From contig DATKMJ010000006.1 of the NCBI GenBank assembly GCA_035541935.1, forward strand, positions 1-51,759: a stretch of 51,759 bases of DNA. The letters run 5' to 3'. Made by a program: the position numbers and the translations under genes. Source of the DNA: Candidatus Binatia bacterium. GTDB lineage: Bacteria; Vulcanimicrobiota; Vulcanimicrobiia; Vulcanimicrobiales; Vulcanimicrobiaceae. Under the pieces are notes generated by a model. That model did not search any database. It was not told the DNA's origin and saw only the letters and a program-made list of their open reading frames with translations. Shown here in pieces: positions 18,528 to 24,517 of this stretch. Numbering within the stretch: the first letter of the stretch is position 1; the number at the start of each line of letters is the position of its first letter.

Positions 18528-19136
18528 ATGCAAAAAGACGCGCTCGCCGCGGCTCGACGGCTCTTTTCCGGCGATCGCCGCCGCCCGCCGGAGAGCGACG
18601 TCATCGAGACGCTGTTGCGTTTCGGGCGCGGCGCGCTCGCATACGCCGCGCGCAGTCACGTCCGCGTGATGCTCCTGCGCCGCGGCGAGCTCTATCGCGA
18701 GGCGTCGCTCGCGCTCGCGCGCTTGGGCATCGACGTCGACGCGTGGCCCGCGCCGCCGGCCGGCCTCTTCGTCGTCGAGGAGCGCGCGCTCTACTTGCGT
18801 TCTCGCAGCCCCATGACCGTCGCACACGAGTTCGGCCACGCCCTCGACTGCGCGCTCGGCGGCGGCGTCTACCGCAGCGGCATCGATCCCGCGGTCCGCT
18901 CGCTCTTCGCCAACGCGAGCTGCTTCATCACGCCGTACGCGGCGACGGGCGTCGACGAATACTTCGCCGAGTCGCTGCGCGCGTACGTGGAAGCCAACGA
19001 TCCGGCGTCACCGTGGCCGCGCGCCACGCGCGCGCGCCTCCGCCACAACGACCCCGGGATGCACGAGTTCATCGAGCTGCTCTTCGAGCACGAGTTCGGC
19101 GGCCGCCCCCACGCCGACGAGGTCGCCTCAATTTAA
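18528..19136 (+). CDS. Anthrax lethal-factor-like (ATLF-type) zinc metallopeptidase
   Basis: A 202-residue protein with the zinc site HEFGH at residues 100-104 and a downstream EYFAE at 144-148 supplying the likely third ligand, the arrangement of gluzincins of the lethal-factor fold. Between them lies a loop with CFITPYAATGVDEYF. There is no signal peptide, so it is probably cytosolic or exported by another route. Its substrate is unknown; related short domains are found in toxins and housekeeping proteins alike. It is divergent from the lipoprotein gene, with 87 bases between them. No strong ribosome binding site is visible at ATG 18528. Confidence 0.78.
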   Translation: MQKDALAAARRLFSGDRRRPPESDVIETLLRFGRGALAYAARSHVRVMLLRRGELYREASLALARLGIDVDAWPAPPAGLFVVEERALYLRSRSPMTVAHEFGHALDCALGGGVYRSGIDPAVRSLFANASCFITPYAATGVDEYFAESLRAYVEANDPASPWPRATRARLRHNDPGMHEFIELLFEHEFGGRPHADEVASI

Positions 19137-19140
19137 TGCA

Positions 19141-19196
19141 GTGTCATCCTGAGCTTGTCGAAGGACGGAGCTTGTCGAAGGACGGAGCTTGTCGAG
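19141..19196 (-). repeat. Dispersed repeat, inverted orientation, one full and two partial copies
   Basis: GTGTCATCCTGAGCTTGTCG-AAGG is followed by two further GGAGCTTGTCGA units at 17-base spacing. This is the only copy in the window pointing to the minus strand. It ends 10 bases before the GIY-YIG start codon and begins 4 bases after the peptidase gene. Confidence 0.8.
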
Positions 19197-19206
19197 AACG
19201 GAACGC

Positions 19207-19632
19207 GTGAAGGCGTATTACGTGTATATGGTGCGGTGCGCCGACGGAAAATTCTACGTCGGGATTAGCAACGATCCCGAACGTCGCATCGCCCAGCACA
19301 ATCTCGGTCATGACCCGGAAAGCTACACGTTTACACGCCGGCCGGTCGAGCTGGTTCATTGTTCCGACTTCAAGGAAGTCGACGATGCGATTCGCTGGGA
19401 AAAGCAGCTAAAAGGCTGGTCACGCGCCAAGAAGATCGCGTTGATCGCGGGCGATTGGAAGACGATCGTTCGTCTCTCTAATGAGAAGAAATCCGTCCTT
19501 CGACAGGCTCAGGATGACACAGCATCTTCCTCAGCGCCTGCGCGCAGCGCAGCCCTGAGCGAGCGCAGCGAGTCGAAGGGTCAGGATGACACAGCATCTT
19601 CCTCAGCGCCTGCGCGCGCAGCGCAGCCCTGA
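19207..19632 (+). CDS. GIY-YIG domain nuclease with a repeat-encoded C-terminal tail
   Basis: I place the start at GTG 19207 (VKAYYVYMVRCADGKFYVG), since the TTG upstream at 19189 lies in repeat DNA. The product is about 141 residues. The first ~90 form a single GIY-YIG domain: YYVYMVRC and FYVGISNDPERRIAQHN carry the two signature strands and the arginine, and AIRWEKQLKGWSRAKKIALI the catalytic glutamate region. These small nucleases cleave DNA; the role of stand-alone ones is mostly unknown. From SVLRQAQDD onward the last ~45 residues are translated from two tandem copies of the dispersed repeat, so the original stop codon has probably been displaced. The gene is bracketed by repeats in opposite orientation. 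Confidence 0.82.
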   Translation: MKAYYVYMVRCADGKFYVGISNDPERRIAQHNLGHDPESYTFTRRPVELVHCSDFKEVDDAIRWEKQLKGWSRAKKIALIAGDWKTIVRLSNEKKSVLRQAQDDTASSSAPARSAALSERSESKGQDDTASSSAPARAAQP

Positions 19633-19699: not shown

Positions 19700-20131
19700 C
19701 TACTTGACGCTTTGGACGGTCGAGACGCTGACGCCCGGGGCGCTATTCTTCCACGAGCTTCGGATGTAGGTGATGGCGGCGGCGATCTGCTCGTCGGAGA
19801 GCAGACCCTTCCAGCGCGGCATGATGCCGCTGTAGGTTTGACCGTTGACGACGAGCCGGCCGTCGAGACCGTCTTTCACGATCGCGATAGCGGCGACCGG
19901 ATCGCCGATGACGATCGGATTTTCGGCGAGCGGCGGAAAGGCGCCGGGAATTCCTTTGCCGTCGACTTGATGGCAGCTCGAGCAGTTCGTCAAGTAGACG
20001 ACGGCGCCGTCGCTCGCCGACGCCGGGTTCTGCTCGGCCGCCGCGGAGACGGCGGCGGCGGTGGTCGCGTGCGACTCCTTCGCGCACGCGGTTAAAACGA
20101 GCGCGAGCACAGACGCTGCGGCCCTTCTCAT
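19700..20131 (-). CDS. Class I cytochrome c, lipoprotein
   Basis: A 143-residue protein from ATG 20131, with GAGGAGG five to six bases upstream. The N-terminus is a lipoprotein signal (LVLTAC, cysteine 16). The haem site is CSSCH at residues 50-54, and Met104 in SGIMPRW is the likely sixth ligand, followed by the helix LSDEQIAAAITYIRSSW typical of cytochrome c. It should be a membrane-tethered, one-haem electron carrier on the outer face of the cytoplasmic membrane. It overlaps the rodA stop by 4 bases (ATGA), so it is translationally coupled to a cell-shape gene, an odd partnership. In actinobacteria a transpeptidase gene sits in this place. Confidence 0.92.
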   Translation of the reverse strand: MRRAAASVLALVLTACAKESHATTAAAVSAAAEQNPASASDGAVVYLTNCSSCHQVDGKGIPGAFPPLAENPIVIGDPVAAIAIVKDGLDGRLVVNGQTYSGIMPRWKGLLSDEQIAAAITYIRSSWKNSAPGVSVSTVQSVK

Positions 20132-21360
20132 GCGATCCTCCTCGGGCGCGAGCTCATCGCCCAGACGAGCGCGACGAGCAGAAAGTTCGCGACGAGCGAG
20201 CTGCCTCCGTAGGAAAGAAACGGCAGCGTGATGCCGGTAAGCGGCAGTAGCCCGATCACGCCTCCGACGATGATGACGACTTGAAAGCCGAGCGTCGCGC
20301 CGAGCCCGGTCGCGAGCAGCTTCGTGTAGAGATCGGGCTGCTCGAGACCCGTCGCGAAGATCCGGCGTACGAGATCGAGGAAGATGGCCAAGACGATCAA
20401 AGCGCCGATCACTCCGAACTCCTCTGCAAAAGCGGCATAGACGTAGTCGGTCGAGACGTCCGGAATAAATTCGGGATGGCCGAGCCGGTATCCGCTGCCG
20501 ACGAGACCGCCCGCGGCAAGCGAGTAGTATGCCTGCGACGACTGATACCCCGCCCCGAGCGGATCGGAGAACGGATTGCGCCAGACCGCTATGCGCGTTG
20601 CGACGTACGGATAGTGATGGACCGCCCAGAACGCGCCGAGGCCGAAGAGAAGCGCGCCGAAGAGCACGATGTCGATTCGGCGCGTCGCGACGTAGAGCAG
20701 CGCCGCAAAGGTCGCGAGCAAGAGCGTTGCCATCCCGAGGTCGCGCTGGAGCACGAGAATCGCCATCGACGCGCCCCAGCCGATGAAGAGCGGACCGAGG
20801 TACTTGACGTTGGCGCGAAGCGACCACGGACGCGCGTTGCCGATCACGTCGGCCGTCTCTGCGAGGTACGCCGCCAAAAAGAAGACGATGAAGAGTTTGA
20901 TCAGTTCGATCGGCTCGTACTGCACCGGCCCGAGCCTGATCCACAGGCGCGCCCCGTTGATCTCTTGGCCGAAGACGAGCAGCAGCACGAAGAGCGCCAA
21001 CGACGCGATGACCCAGAGGTATTTATACGCGGCGAAGCGCCGGAAGTGCGTGAAGAGCGGGCCGGCCGCGATCGCGAGCGCGAGCGAGAGCAGCAGCCAG
21101 AACTGCTGCTTCTGCGCGAGCGCCGGCGAGAGGCGGGCGACGATCGCGAGGCCGAGCGCGGCGAGCACGATCGCTAGCGCGGGAATGACGTCGTCGCGCA
21201 CGGTCCCCGACGGCTGCCAGAGCACCCAGACGATGGCGAGCGCCGCGAGGAGCGCGAGCATCCACGGCGGCCCGATCGCGCCCGGCGGCGCGAAGCGAAG
21301 AATCAGCGCGGCGACGGCGAGCGCCCCCAGCGTCGGCGCGACGCGGCGCACGGCGATCAT
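20128..21360 (-). CDS. rodA: SEDS-family peptidoglycan glycosyltransferase (RodA/FtsW)
   Basis: A 410-residue multi-pass membrane protein from ATG 21360. Family signatures are GPVQYEPIELIKLFIVFFLA, WRNPFSDPLGAGYQSSQAYY and STDYVYAAFAEEFG, the last carrying the conserved aspartate of the large extracellular loop, and the final LPFLSYGGSSLVANFL. SEDS proteins polymerise lipid II into glycan strands with a class B penicillin-binding protein. The neighbouring fhaA-fhaB-PP2C order is that of the mycobacterial rodA locus, so I prefer RodA to FtsW. No class B transpeptidase is adjacent. There is a 19-base gap to the PP2C gene and a 4-base overlap with the cytochrome. Confidence 0.92.
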   Translation of the reverse strand: MIAVRRVAPTLGALAVAALILRFAPPGAIGPPWMLALLAALAIVWVLWQPSGTVRDDVIPALAIVLAALGLAIVARLSPALAQKQQFWLLLSLALAIAAGPLFTHFRRFAAYKYLWVIASLALFVLLLVFGQEINGARLWIRLGPVQYEPIELIKLFIVFFLAAYLAETADVIGNARPWSLRANVKYLGPLFIGWGASMAILVLQRDLGMATLLLATFAALLYVATRRIDIVLFGALLFGLGAFWAVHHYPYVATRIAVWRNPFSDPLGAGYQSSQAYYSLAAGGLVGSGYRLGHPEFIPDVSTDYVYAAFAEEFGVIGALIVLAIFLDLVRRIFATGLEQPDLYTKLLATGLGATLGFQVVIIVGGVIGLLPLTGITLPFLSYGGSSLVANFLLVALVWAMSSRPRRIA

Positions 21361-21379: not shown

Positions 21380-22120
21380 TCAGTGCGTGCAGACCGCGGC
21401 CGCGAGAAACGCGATCGCCGCGGCCGCGCGAATCAACGCCGGCCCGAGCACGATCTCCAGCGTGCGCGGGGCCGGCGATTGATACTGCACGCCCTCATCG
21501 CGCTCGAACCGCGCGATCAAGACGTGCTCGCCGGGATTAGCGGCCTCGAGCTGCGCGATCAGCGCGGCTCGCTCTGCGACGCCGCGGGCGCGCCGTTCGA
21601 CGAGCACGATCGCGTCGCCGAAGAGCAGCGTCGTGCTCGAGACCGTGACGTCGAGCGCCGGTCCGACGCCGAGCGCGCGGTAGAGCAACGGCGAGGGCCG
21701 GTCGTCGAAGACGTCGTCCTCCGAAAGCGCGACGATCTCCCCGGCGCGCGCCAGATAGGCGGCGGTCGAGCCCGCCTGCACGACGTACGCACGCCCCTGC
21801 ACGACGAGCACCGCGGTGAACGACGCGGCCGCGGTAACGTAATCTTCGTGGCTCGCGGTAAACGTGTAGAGATCGCCGTTGACGCGCGTCAGAATCGCGA
21901 GCAGGGCCGTCGCGGCGGCCTGCGGTGAATCGATCGCGCGCCGGAACCGAGCGCTGCGCCCGCGCCGCTCGCACTCCGCGCGCACGCGGCCCAGGAGCGC
22001 CGCTTCGACCGGCACGCCGCCGACGTAACCGAAGCCGCGCGCTACCGCCAAGAGCCACGTCTGGGGGCCGAGCTGCAGGCTCAGGCACGAGGCGCGATCG
22101 CCGCGTATCGCGAGCGTCAT
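21380..22120 (-). CDS. PP2C-fold protein, predicted inactive phosphatase, C-terminal membrane anchor
   Basis: A 246-residue protein from ATG 22120, in the place of the serine/threonine phosphatase PstP of actinobacterial rodA loci. The PP2C pattern can be followed: TWLLAVARGFGYVGG aligns with the usual AVADGMGGH-type loop, but the metal-binding Asp-Gly is Arg-Gly (28-29). VVQAGSTAAYLARAGEIVALSEDD aligns with the usual GDSR-AY segment, but GDSR is GSTA (117-120). The late Asp-Asn motif is also not seen. The C-terminus (ALIRAAAAIAFLAAAVCTH) is hydrophobic and could anchor it. It is therefore probably a pseudophosphatase, acting as a binding or scaffold protein near RodA. Overlaps with fhaB by 4 bases. 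Confidence 0.68.
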   Translation of the reverse strand: MTLAIRGDRASCLSLQLGPQTWLLAVARGFGYVGGVPVEAALLGRVRAECERRGRSARFRRAIDSPQAAATALLAILTRVNGDLYTFTASHEDYVTAAASFTAVLVVQGRAYVVQAGSTAAYLARAGEIVALSEDDVFDDRPSPLLYRALGVGPALDVTVSSTTLLFGDAIVLVERRARGVAERAALIAQLEAANPGEHVLIARFERDEGVQYQSPAPRTLEIVLGPALIRAAAAIAFLAAAVCTH

Positions 22121-22560
22121 CCCGGCTTCACCGCGTTCACGCGCAGGCGCGTCGTGCCGACGTCGATCTCGTCGCCGGCGCGAATCTCGATCGCCTCGGT
22201 GACGCCGCGTCCGTTGAGAAACGTGCCGTTGCTGCTGTGGAGATCGTCAATGTAGACGACGCCTTGGTGCGTCTCGAAGCGAGCGTGCCGCCGGCTGACC
22301 TCCGGATCGCGCAGGACGATCTCGGCGCTCCGATCGCGGCCGAGCTCGAACGGCGGACGGGCACGGTGCGTACGCTGCGCTCCGCGCTCGAGAATTTCCA
22401 AGTCCACGAGCATCGGCGTGAGTGGGCCGATCTCCGCCGCCGCGCGAACGCGCGGCCGCGCCGCCAGCAGCGCGACGACCGCGAGCGCACCGGTGATCTC
22501 GAGCGTGCCGATGCGCATCTGCCGCTCGAAGTCGGCGGCCACGGCGAAGAGCGGCGTCAT
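22117..22560 (-). CDS. fhaB: FHA-domain protein, FhaB type
   Basis: A 147-residue protein from ATG 22560. A hydrophobic segment (GTLEITGALAVVALLAA) precedes one forkhead-associated domain. The phosphothreonine-binding residues are present: GRDRSAEIVLRDPEVSRRHARF with Arg and Ser-Arg-Arg-His, then HSSNGTFLNG. FHA domains bind phosphothreonine peptides. In mycobacteria the same gene order (fhaA, fhaB, pstP, rodA) links kinase signalling to wall growth. No serine/threonine kinase is in this window. Both ends overlap the neighbouring genes by 4 bases, which implies cotranslation with fhaA and the PP2C-like gene. Confidence 0.88.
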   Translation of the reverse strand: MTPLFAVAADFERQMRIGTLEITGALAVVALLAARPRVRAAAEIGPLTPMLVDLEILERGAQRTHRARPPFELGRDRSAEIVLRDPEVSRRHARFETHQGVVYIDDLHSSNGTFLNGRGVTEAIEIRAGDEIDVGTTRLRVNAVKPG

Positions 22561-23222
22561 CGGCGCTCGAACCTCATTCGCGTGTTGCCAAACCGCAACT
22601 CGTCGCCGTCGTGGAGCGCCTCGGCGTTGACGCGGCGTCCGTTGACGAACGTCCCATTCGTCGAGCCGAGATCGCGAACTCTCGCCTCCCCGGCAGCGAC
22701 TTCGACGACCGCATGCGCGCGCGAGACGCTCGGATCTACGAGGACGATCTCGCTCTCCTCGGCGCGACCGATGCGCGCGGCTCTCTCGATCGAGTAGACG
22801 CCGTTCGGCGGAACGCCCTCGATCGTGTGCAAGCGATAGACTTCGCCCGGATCGCCCTCCCCGGCGACTTCGACGCCGATCGCACCGAGCGGCATGCTCT
22901 CGCGTTCCGACATCCTGACGCTCGCGTCGCCGTCGTCGAATTCTATCCCGACCCTTCCGGCAAGATCGCGCAGGAGTTGTGCCCAGGCTCGCTCGAGATA
23001 CTCGCGGTGTTCGTCGAGGCGCTCGTAATCGGCGGGGCTGACGAAGACCTCGTAGCTGCCGGGCGCGTGCGCGCGGCCGTCGTCGTCGCGGGTCTGCGCC
23101 TCCATCGTCGAGACGAGCTTGCGCGCGATCTGCGCCGGCTCCAAGTCGCTCGGGAAGGTCTTGGCAAAACTGCGCTCGATGAACGCGGCGCAGAGCCGTT
23201 CGAGCTTCGCAAGAAAGCTCAC
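22557..23222 (-). CDS. fhaA: FhaA-type protein (DUF3662 plus FHA domain)
   Basis: A 221-residue protein. I place the start at GTG 23222 (SFLAKLERLCAAFIERSF), which overlaps the rsmB stop by 4 bases, although the frame is open far upstream. The N-terminal domain (about 1-110: FAKTFPSDLEPAQIARKLV, YEVFVSPADYERL) is DUF3662, typical of FhaA. The C-terminal FHA domain has IGRAEESEIVLVDPSVSRAH and LGSTNGTFVNG with all phosphothreonine-binding residues intact. The linker between the two domains is much shorter than in mycobacterial FhaA. It is probably an adaptor between protein phosphorylation and the wall-synthesis apparatus encoded downstream. Confidence 0.9.
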   Translation of the reverse strand: MSFLAKLERLCAAFIERSFAKTFPSDLEPAQIARKLVSTMEAQTRDDDGRAHAPGSYEVFVSPADYERLDEHREYLERAWAQLLRDLAGRVGIEFDDGDASVRMSERESMPLGAIGVEVAGEGDPGEVYRLHTIEGVPPNGVYSIERAARIGRAEESEIVLVDPSVSRAHAVVEVAAGEARVRDLGSTNGTFVNGRRVNAEALHDGDELRFGNTRMRFERR

Positions 23223-24517
23223 GGCCGGCGTTCGACCCGCGCGATGTAGAATCCGTCGCGGCCGCCGACGCCGGGCGCCACCTGCACGTCGCCGTCGCGC
23301 GTCAATAGAGCAGCGTACGCGGCGGGCATCAAGCCGCGCTCGAAGTTCTGTCGCGATAGAAACCAATCGATCACTTCGGTCGTCTCGCGTGGATCGGTCG
23401 AACAGACCGCGTAGACCAGCGCACCTCCGGGGTAGACGTGACGGGCGGATTCTTCGAGCAGGGCGCGCTGCGTCAGCGCCATGCGTTCGCCGTCGGTTCC
23501 CTGCTTCTTCCAACGCGCCTCCGGGTGGCGGCCGACGACGCCGACCCCCGAGCACGGCGCGTCGAGGAGCACGCGGTCGAACTGCCGCGCCGGCTCGAGG
23601 ATCTCCGTCGTCGCGTCGCCGGCGACGATCGAGGCGGCGATCCCGGCCTCTCCCAATCGCCGCCCGAGCGTCGCCGCCTTTCGCTCGTCGCGCTCGATGC
23701 AGCAGATCGAGCCTTGCCCTTCGAGGCGCGCGCCGATTTGGAGCGCCTTGTTCCCGCGGCCGCTGCAGACGTCGAGAATTGCTTCGCCCGGCTGCGGCCC
23801 GAGCACGTCGACCGGCATCGCCGAGCTCTCGGATTGCGGCCACCACGCGCCGTCGCCGCCGCCGGCGCGCGCGAGCGTCCCCCGTTCGACGAGCAGCGAC
23901 TCGGCGACGATCGGCGAGGGTGACGTCTCGATGCCGAGCAGCGCCAGCCGCGCGATTACGTCGCTCGGCGTGGTCTTGAGGCGGTTGACCACCAGCGCCG
24001 CGCGCTGCGGCTCGTCCACCGCGGCGCAAATCGCTTCGACCTCGTCGCCGAAGACGCCGCGCCACTGCCGCACGAGCCAGGTCGGCAGCGAGTAGCGGAC
24101 TGCGAGGTAATCGTCGTCGTTCTCGAACGCCGCGCGCTGCGGCTCCGCCTTACCGGCCCGCAACATCGAACGGAGCACCGCGTTGACGAGATTGGCGAGC
24201 CCCTTATGCCCCCATCGCTTCGCCAGGTTGACGAACTCGAAGAGCGTGGCGTGCTCGTCAGCGCGCGTGTAGAGCAGCTCGTACGCAGCCAGCCGCAGAA
24301 TCTCGTGGATGGCCGGCGGCAGCGCCTTCTGCTCGGAGAGAAACGGCGCGAGATGCCAGTCGAGCGCGCGGCGCATCTTGATCGCACCGTAGGCCAACTC
24401 CGCGGCGAAGGCGCGGTCGCGGTCGCTCAACTGAGACTTGCGTGCGCGATAATCGAACGCCGCCTGGGCAGCGCGCTCGGGGCTCCCGGCGTCCGGCGAC
24501 GGAAAGACGTCGCGCAC
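23219..24517 (-). CDS. rsmB: 16S rRNA m5C967 methyltransferase RsmB
   Basis: A 432-residue protein from GTG 24517. An N-terminal NusB-like RNA-binding domain (about 1-135: RKSQLSDRDRAFAAELAYG, LANLVNAVLRSM) is followed by the methyltransferase domain with the SAM loop VCSGRGNKALQI and the two catalytic cysteines in DAPCSGVGVVGRHPEARW and YAVCSTDPRET. It methylates cytosine 967 of 16S rRNA. The start is uncertain: the preceding codons still read like the family (ALALSV), yet no start codon remains before a stop inside a dispersed repeat at 24546-24610. The repeat may have truncated the 5' end. def-fmt-rsmB is a common order in many bacteria. Confidence 0.93.
   Translation of the reverse strand: MRDVFPSPDAGSPERAAQAAFDYRARKSQLSDRDRAFAAELAYGAIKMRRALDWHLAPFLSEQKALPPAIHEILRLAAYELLYTRADEHATLFEFVNLAKRWGHKGLANLVNAVLRSMLRAGKAEPQRAAFENDDDYLAVRYSLPTWLVRQWRGVFGDEVEAICAAVDEPQRAALVVNRLKTTPSDVIARLALLGIETSPSPIVAESLLVERGTLARAGGGDGAWWPQSESSAMPVDVLGPQPGEAILDVCSGRGNKALQIGARLEGQGSICCIERDERKAATLGRRLGEAGIAASIVAGDATTEILEPARQFDRVLLDAPCSGVGVVGRHPEARWKKQGTDGERMALTQRALLEESARHVYPGGALVYAVCSTDPRETTEVIDWFLSRQNFERGLMPAAYAALLTRDGDVQVAPGVGGRDGFYIARVERRP

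Follow-up and report, generated by a model that had tools for sequence, protein, structure and literature searches.

What becomes of a phosphatase gene that keeps its place in a wall-growth operon after its active site has gone? The window, i.e. the whole 51,759-nucleotide stretch of DNA analysed here, corresponds to contig C6 in a genome of 2.41 Mb (98.95% complete, 71 contigs) and carries, between fhaB and rodA, a gene related to the PstP/Stp1-type PP2C phosphatases (Table 1). A first-pass annotation had read its product as a selected pseudophosphatase, a reader or scaffold without eraser function in a wall-growth control module. The ATG of the gene overlaps the fhaB stop codon by 4 bases. 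The order rsmB-fhaA-fhaB-PP2C-rodA is conserved across the typed orthologue loci, with fhaA, fhaB, the PP2C gene and rodA contiguous; the exception is family f3, whose loci, as retrieved, lack fhaA. Two loci are spaced unlike the others, with about 1.7 kb between the PP2C gene and rodA in G140 (L133) and about 0.8 kb in G022 (L140). Downstream of the rodA operon lie two open reading frames, 18528-19136 and 19189-19632, which by eye we take to be look-alikes of a HEFGH-type metallopeptidase and of a GIY-YIG protein, respectively.

Table 1 Features of the operon and of the PP2C-fold protein in the window
Feature	Position	Strand	Basis or remark
RodA/FtsW-type SEDS glycosyltransferase	20128..21360	-	domain matches; 3' of the PP2C gene
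PP2C-fold pseudophosphatase (dead PstP/Stp1-type)	21380..22120	-	246 aa
Hydrophobic helix at the C terminus (residues 225-245), a probable membrane anchor	21386..21448	-	predicted
E175-R176-R177, replacing [ST]DG	21590..21598	-	alignment
Substrate flap remnant (about residues 134-144)	21689..21721	-	intact relatives have about 15 residues more
GSTA (G117-S118-T119-A120), replacing GD[SA]R	21761..21772	-	alignment
Arg28, replacing the metal-ligand Asp of the DG motif (R28-G29)	22037..22039	-	alignment
FhaB-like FHA protein	22117..22560	-	intact phosphothreonine-binding residues
FhaA (FhaA_N + FHA domain)	22557..23291	-	domain matches
RsmB	23219..24517	-	upstream neighbour, conserved

Four aspartates, in the DG, GDxR, [ST]DG and DN motifs, which we take to be the metal ligands of PPM phosphatases, are invariant in 24 of 24 intact syntenic relatives. 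The window protein has none of them: in an alignment that also included 10 phylum references from outside these families, R28, S118 and R176 occupy the first three positions and the DN motif is absent. The first-pass annotation had described the changes from Asp-Gly to Arg-Gly and from GDSR to GSTA, both of which the alignment confirms, and had missed the other two. The same state is found throughout the main derived clade, all 41 sequences compared having been typed with zero ligand Asp; set against the 24 invariant intact relatives, they rule out chance, misalignment and sequencing error. Weighted by genus, 64% of the derived clade has Arg at position 28 (A, T, H, Q and E occur in the remainder), a majority that indicates no specific new pocket chemistry; a role for Arg28 as a mimic of the lost metals, in a metal-free phosphate reader, was considered on this point and found unsupported.

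On its own, the window protein scores below the curated family cut-offs of Pfam and NCBIfam, with sub-threshold single-sequence matches to NCBIfam Stp1 (E 1.1e-4) and Pfam SpoIIE (0.0096), and as a single query it matched no related locus in public genome records. Three intact relatives tested pass the Pfam PP2C_2 and PP2C cut-offs, and an alignment used as the query retrieved 21 related loci from the same records. The profile of the derived sequences matches that of the intact syntenic relatives (hhalign 99.8%), and the latter profile, built from 13 sequences, matches solved PP2C enzymes at 7e-34. An AF2 model of the window protein (pLDDT 80.8, from a 21-sequence alignment) is matched to PP2C by Foldseek at 1.3e-10, and its residues 1-207 match bacterial PP2Cs, with a VIA Z of 19.7 to Stp1 over 195 residues. 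Together, these results indicated that the window protein adopts a PP2C fold, as predicted by the model, and gene order together with the profile match points to its descent from an intact PP2C at the same locus. It descends from a PP2C, yet we do not class it as a PP2C phosphatase, because the four ligands are missing.

The sample consisted of 148 genomes of the window's phylum, whose named relatives belong to Candidatus Eremiobacterota. Protein searches (E <= 0.01) gave matches in 97 of these, seven of them weak and with no typed gene at the locus (G003, G019, G020, G021, G028, G081 and G110), and an orthologue is present in 90. Ligand states were assigned in 105 genomes: 24 are intact, 56 have lost all four ligands, 10 are partial, and in 15, which are genomes with the fhaA locus on a long enough contig, the gene is absent. 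Contig ends cut the gene in G131, G132 and G072 among the partial set and in G077, G124, G144 and G147 among the all-lost set. The loss first noted in a single sequence is therefore shared across the lineage, in 56 of 105 typed genomes from many genera. At 15 of 15 gene-less loci, the distance from the fhaB stop to the start of the rodA model is -67 to 29 nt, with no space for a remnant, and absence is a clean deletion. In the distant phylum member G003 (L173, 1513-3957), fhaA, fhaB and rodA are contiguous with no PP2C gene between them, and six Stp1-type matches lie elsewhere in its genome. A broken frame occurs in one of the 56 all-lost genomes, G147 (L109, 1990-2691), where the gene is split over two frames near a contig end, possibly by an assembly error.

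The dead gene changes as a protein-coding gene does. Its median dN/dS within genera, estimated with NG86, a method that is crude where dS is near 1, is 0.20 in g1, 0.13 in g17, 0.17 in g6, 0.23 in g15 and 0.135 in g2, and lies between 0.05 and 0.13 in four single pairs. These values are close to those of fhaA and fhaB, exceed those of rodA in g1, g17, g6, g15 and g23, and are lower than those of rodA in g16, g22, g25 and g2. Intact groups of at least two genomes give 0.03-0.11, so that the dead gene, at 0.05-0.23, is somewhat less constrained. A repeat over the whole gene gave 0.10-0.31 in frame versus 1.39-2.23 in the +1 frame and 2.03-5.00 in the +2 frame; one antisense frame gave 0.18-0.40, a low value that is expected because its codon positions mirror the coding ones. 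Invariant scaffold residues of the derived clade comprise G29, G31, N81, D93, Y94, S100, G117, T119, L123, R148, G168 and D169, and the former ligand positions 28, 118 and 176 rank 144, 137 and 124 of 257 in conservation, near the median. Thus, the fold has been kept and the chemistry lost. Judged from these substitution patterns, the dead protein is coding and under purifying selection, which agrees with the part of the first-pass annotation that called it a selected pseudophosphatase.

How the dead state arose can be followed along the locus. Trees were built from the neighbour genes alone, the PP2C gene itself being left out; the main tree has 97 rows, 8 poorly filled rows having been dropped, and G088 and the g10/g30/g38 group, each with one Asp, were counted as lost. 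Parsimony on this tree requires the ligands to have been lost twice and the presence of the gene to have changed five times, at least four of these changes falling on starred branches; the rows nearest to the window by tree place (G028, G081, G107 and G130) are gene-less throughout. The same two lineages of ligand loss appear in a careful 52-row tree. A single origin of the dead state was set aside since the best tree needs two ligand losses, although grouping every lost row into one clade is not rejected on the 52-row tree (AU p 0.0785). Parallel loss of the DG Asp and the flap stands independently of this test, because g24 and g10/g30/g38 retain the DG Asp and flap distances of 41-44; this reasoning needs both groups to be clades, and both are starred in the trees.

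The intermediate states suggest an order of events. Proteins of families f2 and f3 have 357-372 residues, with a C-terminal domain beyond the helix, and intact f1 proteins have 291-305. Among the partial states, DN has become DS or DD in g3 and g20, GDxR has become GE and DN has become DG in g19, and [ST]DG has become TSG in g9, while the DG Asp is still present in g24 and g10/g30/g38. With the flap measured from the GDxR motif to LLxRxLG, intact sequences give a distance of 41-48 (22 of 24; the remaining two fall outside the pattern) and the seven partial sequences that are not truncated give 41-44. All-lost sequences give 29-31 (51 of 52 measured), the exception being G140 with 44; G032 falls outside the pattern. 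Flap shortening occurred independently in the g2 lineage and in the main derived one. Most derived genera retain the hydrophobic helix at the C terminus, which is weak in g7 and g16 and missing from g17 (7/7), and membrane tethering is therefore not universal. As reconstructed from these sequences, decay was stepwise: first the ligands, then the flap in two lineages, then the tail helix in one genus or the gene itself.

The pathway around the gene is still in place. The window genome has a single Hanks-type kinase match, a PknB-like protein with PASTA domains that adjoins a PbpA-like protein on another contig and whose HRD and DFG motifs are intact by eye; a kinase is found in 146 of 148 phylum genomes searched. 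Both FhaA and FhaB keep their phosphothreonine-binding residues, as the first-pass annotation had observed. These residues are, with few exceptions, conserved alike in the intact, partial, lost and gene-less groups and so say nothing about the dead protein. The 4-base coupling to fhaB is likewise real and likewise uninformative: intact genes overlap fhaB too (-10 in most intact f1 genomes and in f2 genomes), and the overlap is inherited. Both features occur without a dead protein and thus give the proposed scaffold no support, and that proposal as first argued also conflicts with the loss of the flap and with clean deletion in 15 typed genomes, the window's nearest relatives included; an obligatory scaffold would not be dispensed with in this way. 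A comparison of neighbour distances revealed no faster change of FhaA, FhaB or RodA in gene-less lineages. Released constraint on the partners after gene loss was rejected on this result; its yardstick, the ratio to rsmB, is flawed, being confounded by the many loci that held only part of rsmB.

The 'without eraser' part of the first-pass annotation is only partly right. Apart from the window protein, the window genome yields no Stp1-type PP2C at E <= 0.01 and no PF13672 match at E <= 10. A weak second PP2C match falls inside a SpoIIE-type PPM, and two SpoIIE-type PPMs are present, with PPM motifs visible by eye, one of them sensor-linked and located on contig 15. SpoIIE-type PPMs usually act on anti-anti-sigma factors. 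The protein at L195 1474-2844, a SpoIIE-type PPM with a sensor-like N-terminal region and motifs intact by eye, is a candidate replacement eraser, and the sole SpoIIE match of the gene-less g12 genome G099 resembles it. Overall, the earlier interpretation is partly supported.

That a lineage-wide pseudophosphatase, folded and apparently inactive, sits in a wall-growth operon of these uncultured soil bacteria is well supported by the comparative sequence data. What it does is more finely balanced. The account that we favour, and to which we give about an even chance, is that a PstP/Stp1-type PP2C lost catalysis and persists as a non-catalytic, membrane-tethered fold with a binding or allosteric role; that the dead protein acts as some form of scaffold is a reasonable inference. 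In the ancestors of most of the family, the PP2C between fhaB and rodA would have ceased to be catalytic, and the protein, unable to dephosphorylate, would have been kept for what it binds at the membrane through the conserved scaffold rather than through the old active-site pocket. Its partner would most probably be an old one, such as RodA, an FHA protein or PknB. The wall-growth phosphothreonine pathway would then run without an operon eraser and rely on dilution, proteolysis or another phosphatase. Against this account stand the loss of the tail helix in g17 and the lack of faster change in FhaA, FhaB and RodA where the gene is gone. The role is dispensable, the gene having been lost at least four times (five by parsimony), and this, with the possibility of a replacement eraser, lowers the surprise of a dead phosphatase.

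The strongest competing explanation, which we nonetheless think unlikely, is slow decay: the enzyme became unneeded, the gene is on its way out, and the remaining constraint reflects folding or the avoidance of harm and no new job. In its favour, ectodomain, ligands, flap, tail helix and in the end the gene have gone one step at a time, the old ligand columns drift, and the gene is absent from 15 of 105 typed genomes, among them the window's nearest relatives. It fits poorly with purifying selection resembling that on fhaA and fhaB over many genera, and with the lack of visible pseudogene stages, the genes being intact, cut by contig ends or cleanly absent, with one broken frame among 56. Less probable still is that a SpoIIE/RsbU-type PPM, such as the sensor-linked protein on contig 15, took over the PknB substrates and freed the PP2C to die. 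Such PPMs occur in 146 of 148 genomes, with two in the window genome and exactly one in some gene-less g12 genomes, but relatives with an intact PP2C carry them equally, so that nothing points to their having been gained when the loss occurred, and their usual targets, as noted, are anti-anti-sigma factors. That the protein is still an enzyme, with shifted acidic residues such as D8, D93 and D136 rebuilding a metal site, appears very improbable. The three residues are highly conserved in the derived clade, but intact relatives also conserve D93 and D136, which are therefore not replacement ligands; moreover, the protein has lost all four direct ligands together, has Ala in place of the GDSR Arg, and lacks the flap. 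An assembly or annotation artefact, conceivable for named relatives that are nearly all metagenome-assembled and a genome in 71 contigs, is already refuted: 56 of 105 typed genomes share this state, the substitutions are third-position-biased, and synteny is conserved.

Returning to the account of a retained binding or allosteric fold, a bolder version may be entertained, tentatively and against our own expectation: the PknB-PASTA, FhaA, FhaB and RodA module would have shed its eraser at least twice in parallel, by ligand erosion, flap deletion to the same length and, in one lineage, gene deletion, and the dead phosphatase would be a regulatory subunit, a bacterial counterpart of TAB1 or PHLPP seen together with its intermediates. 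If so, phosphorylation would be effectively one-way or reset by growth. Close relatives span intact, partly eroded, dead and deleted states in one operon, with writer and readers kept. This series makes two questions testable: does PknB-FHA-RodA control require a dedicated eraser, and by what route does a bacterial PP2C become a pseudophosphatase?

In actinobacteria the locus order is fhaA-fhaB-pstP-rodA-pbpA-pknA-pknB, and PstP has a C-terminal membrane helix. The window protein, with its PP2C fold and C-terminal helix, and the PASTA kinase beside PbpA resemble this system; unlike in the actinobacterial locus, pbpA-pknB lies apart from the window operon. The PstP locus likewise clusters fhaA, fhaB, a PP2C and rodA and has FHA readers, and in mycobacteria the phosphatase of the fhaA-fhaB-pstP locus is reported to be essential and the only one in the genome (PMC6554272, PMC11898655). 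The window protein differs from PstP in having neither metal ligands nor flap, and in some relatives its gene is deleted. The best structural and profile matches are Stp1 (S. agalactiae 2pk0, S. aureus 5f1m) and tPphA (2j82), which, unlike the window protein, are active metal-dependent enzymes. Among the listed titles and opening lines of abstracts from the open-licence PMC literature, no bacterial PP2C pseudophosphatase was found. TAB1, a eukaryotic kinase activator, has a PP2C fold and no catalysis, as predicted here for the window protein, whose model matches it (2j4o, Z 16.7). Animals have pseudophosphatases of this fold in TAB1 and PHLPP2: TAB1 is reported to hold a single metal at the M2 site, and PHLPP2, a conserved PP2C, to have been retained after an ancestor lost the activity (PMC12002173). 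The window protein departs from TAB1 in lacking the DG Asp, and from PHLPP2, which keeps zinc and a conserved flap, in having lost both ligands and flap (29-31 versus 41-48). With TAB1 and PHLPP2 it shares lineage-fixed ligand loss, a retained fold and purifying selection.
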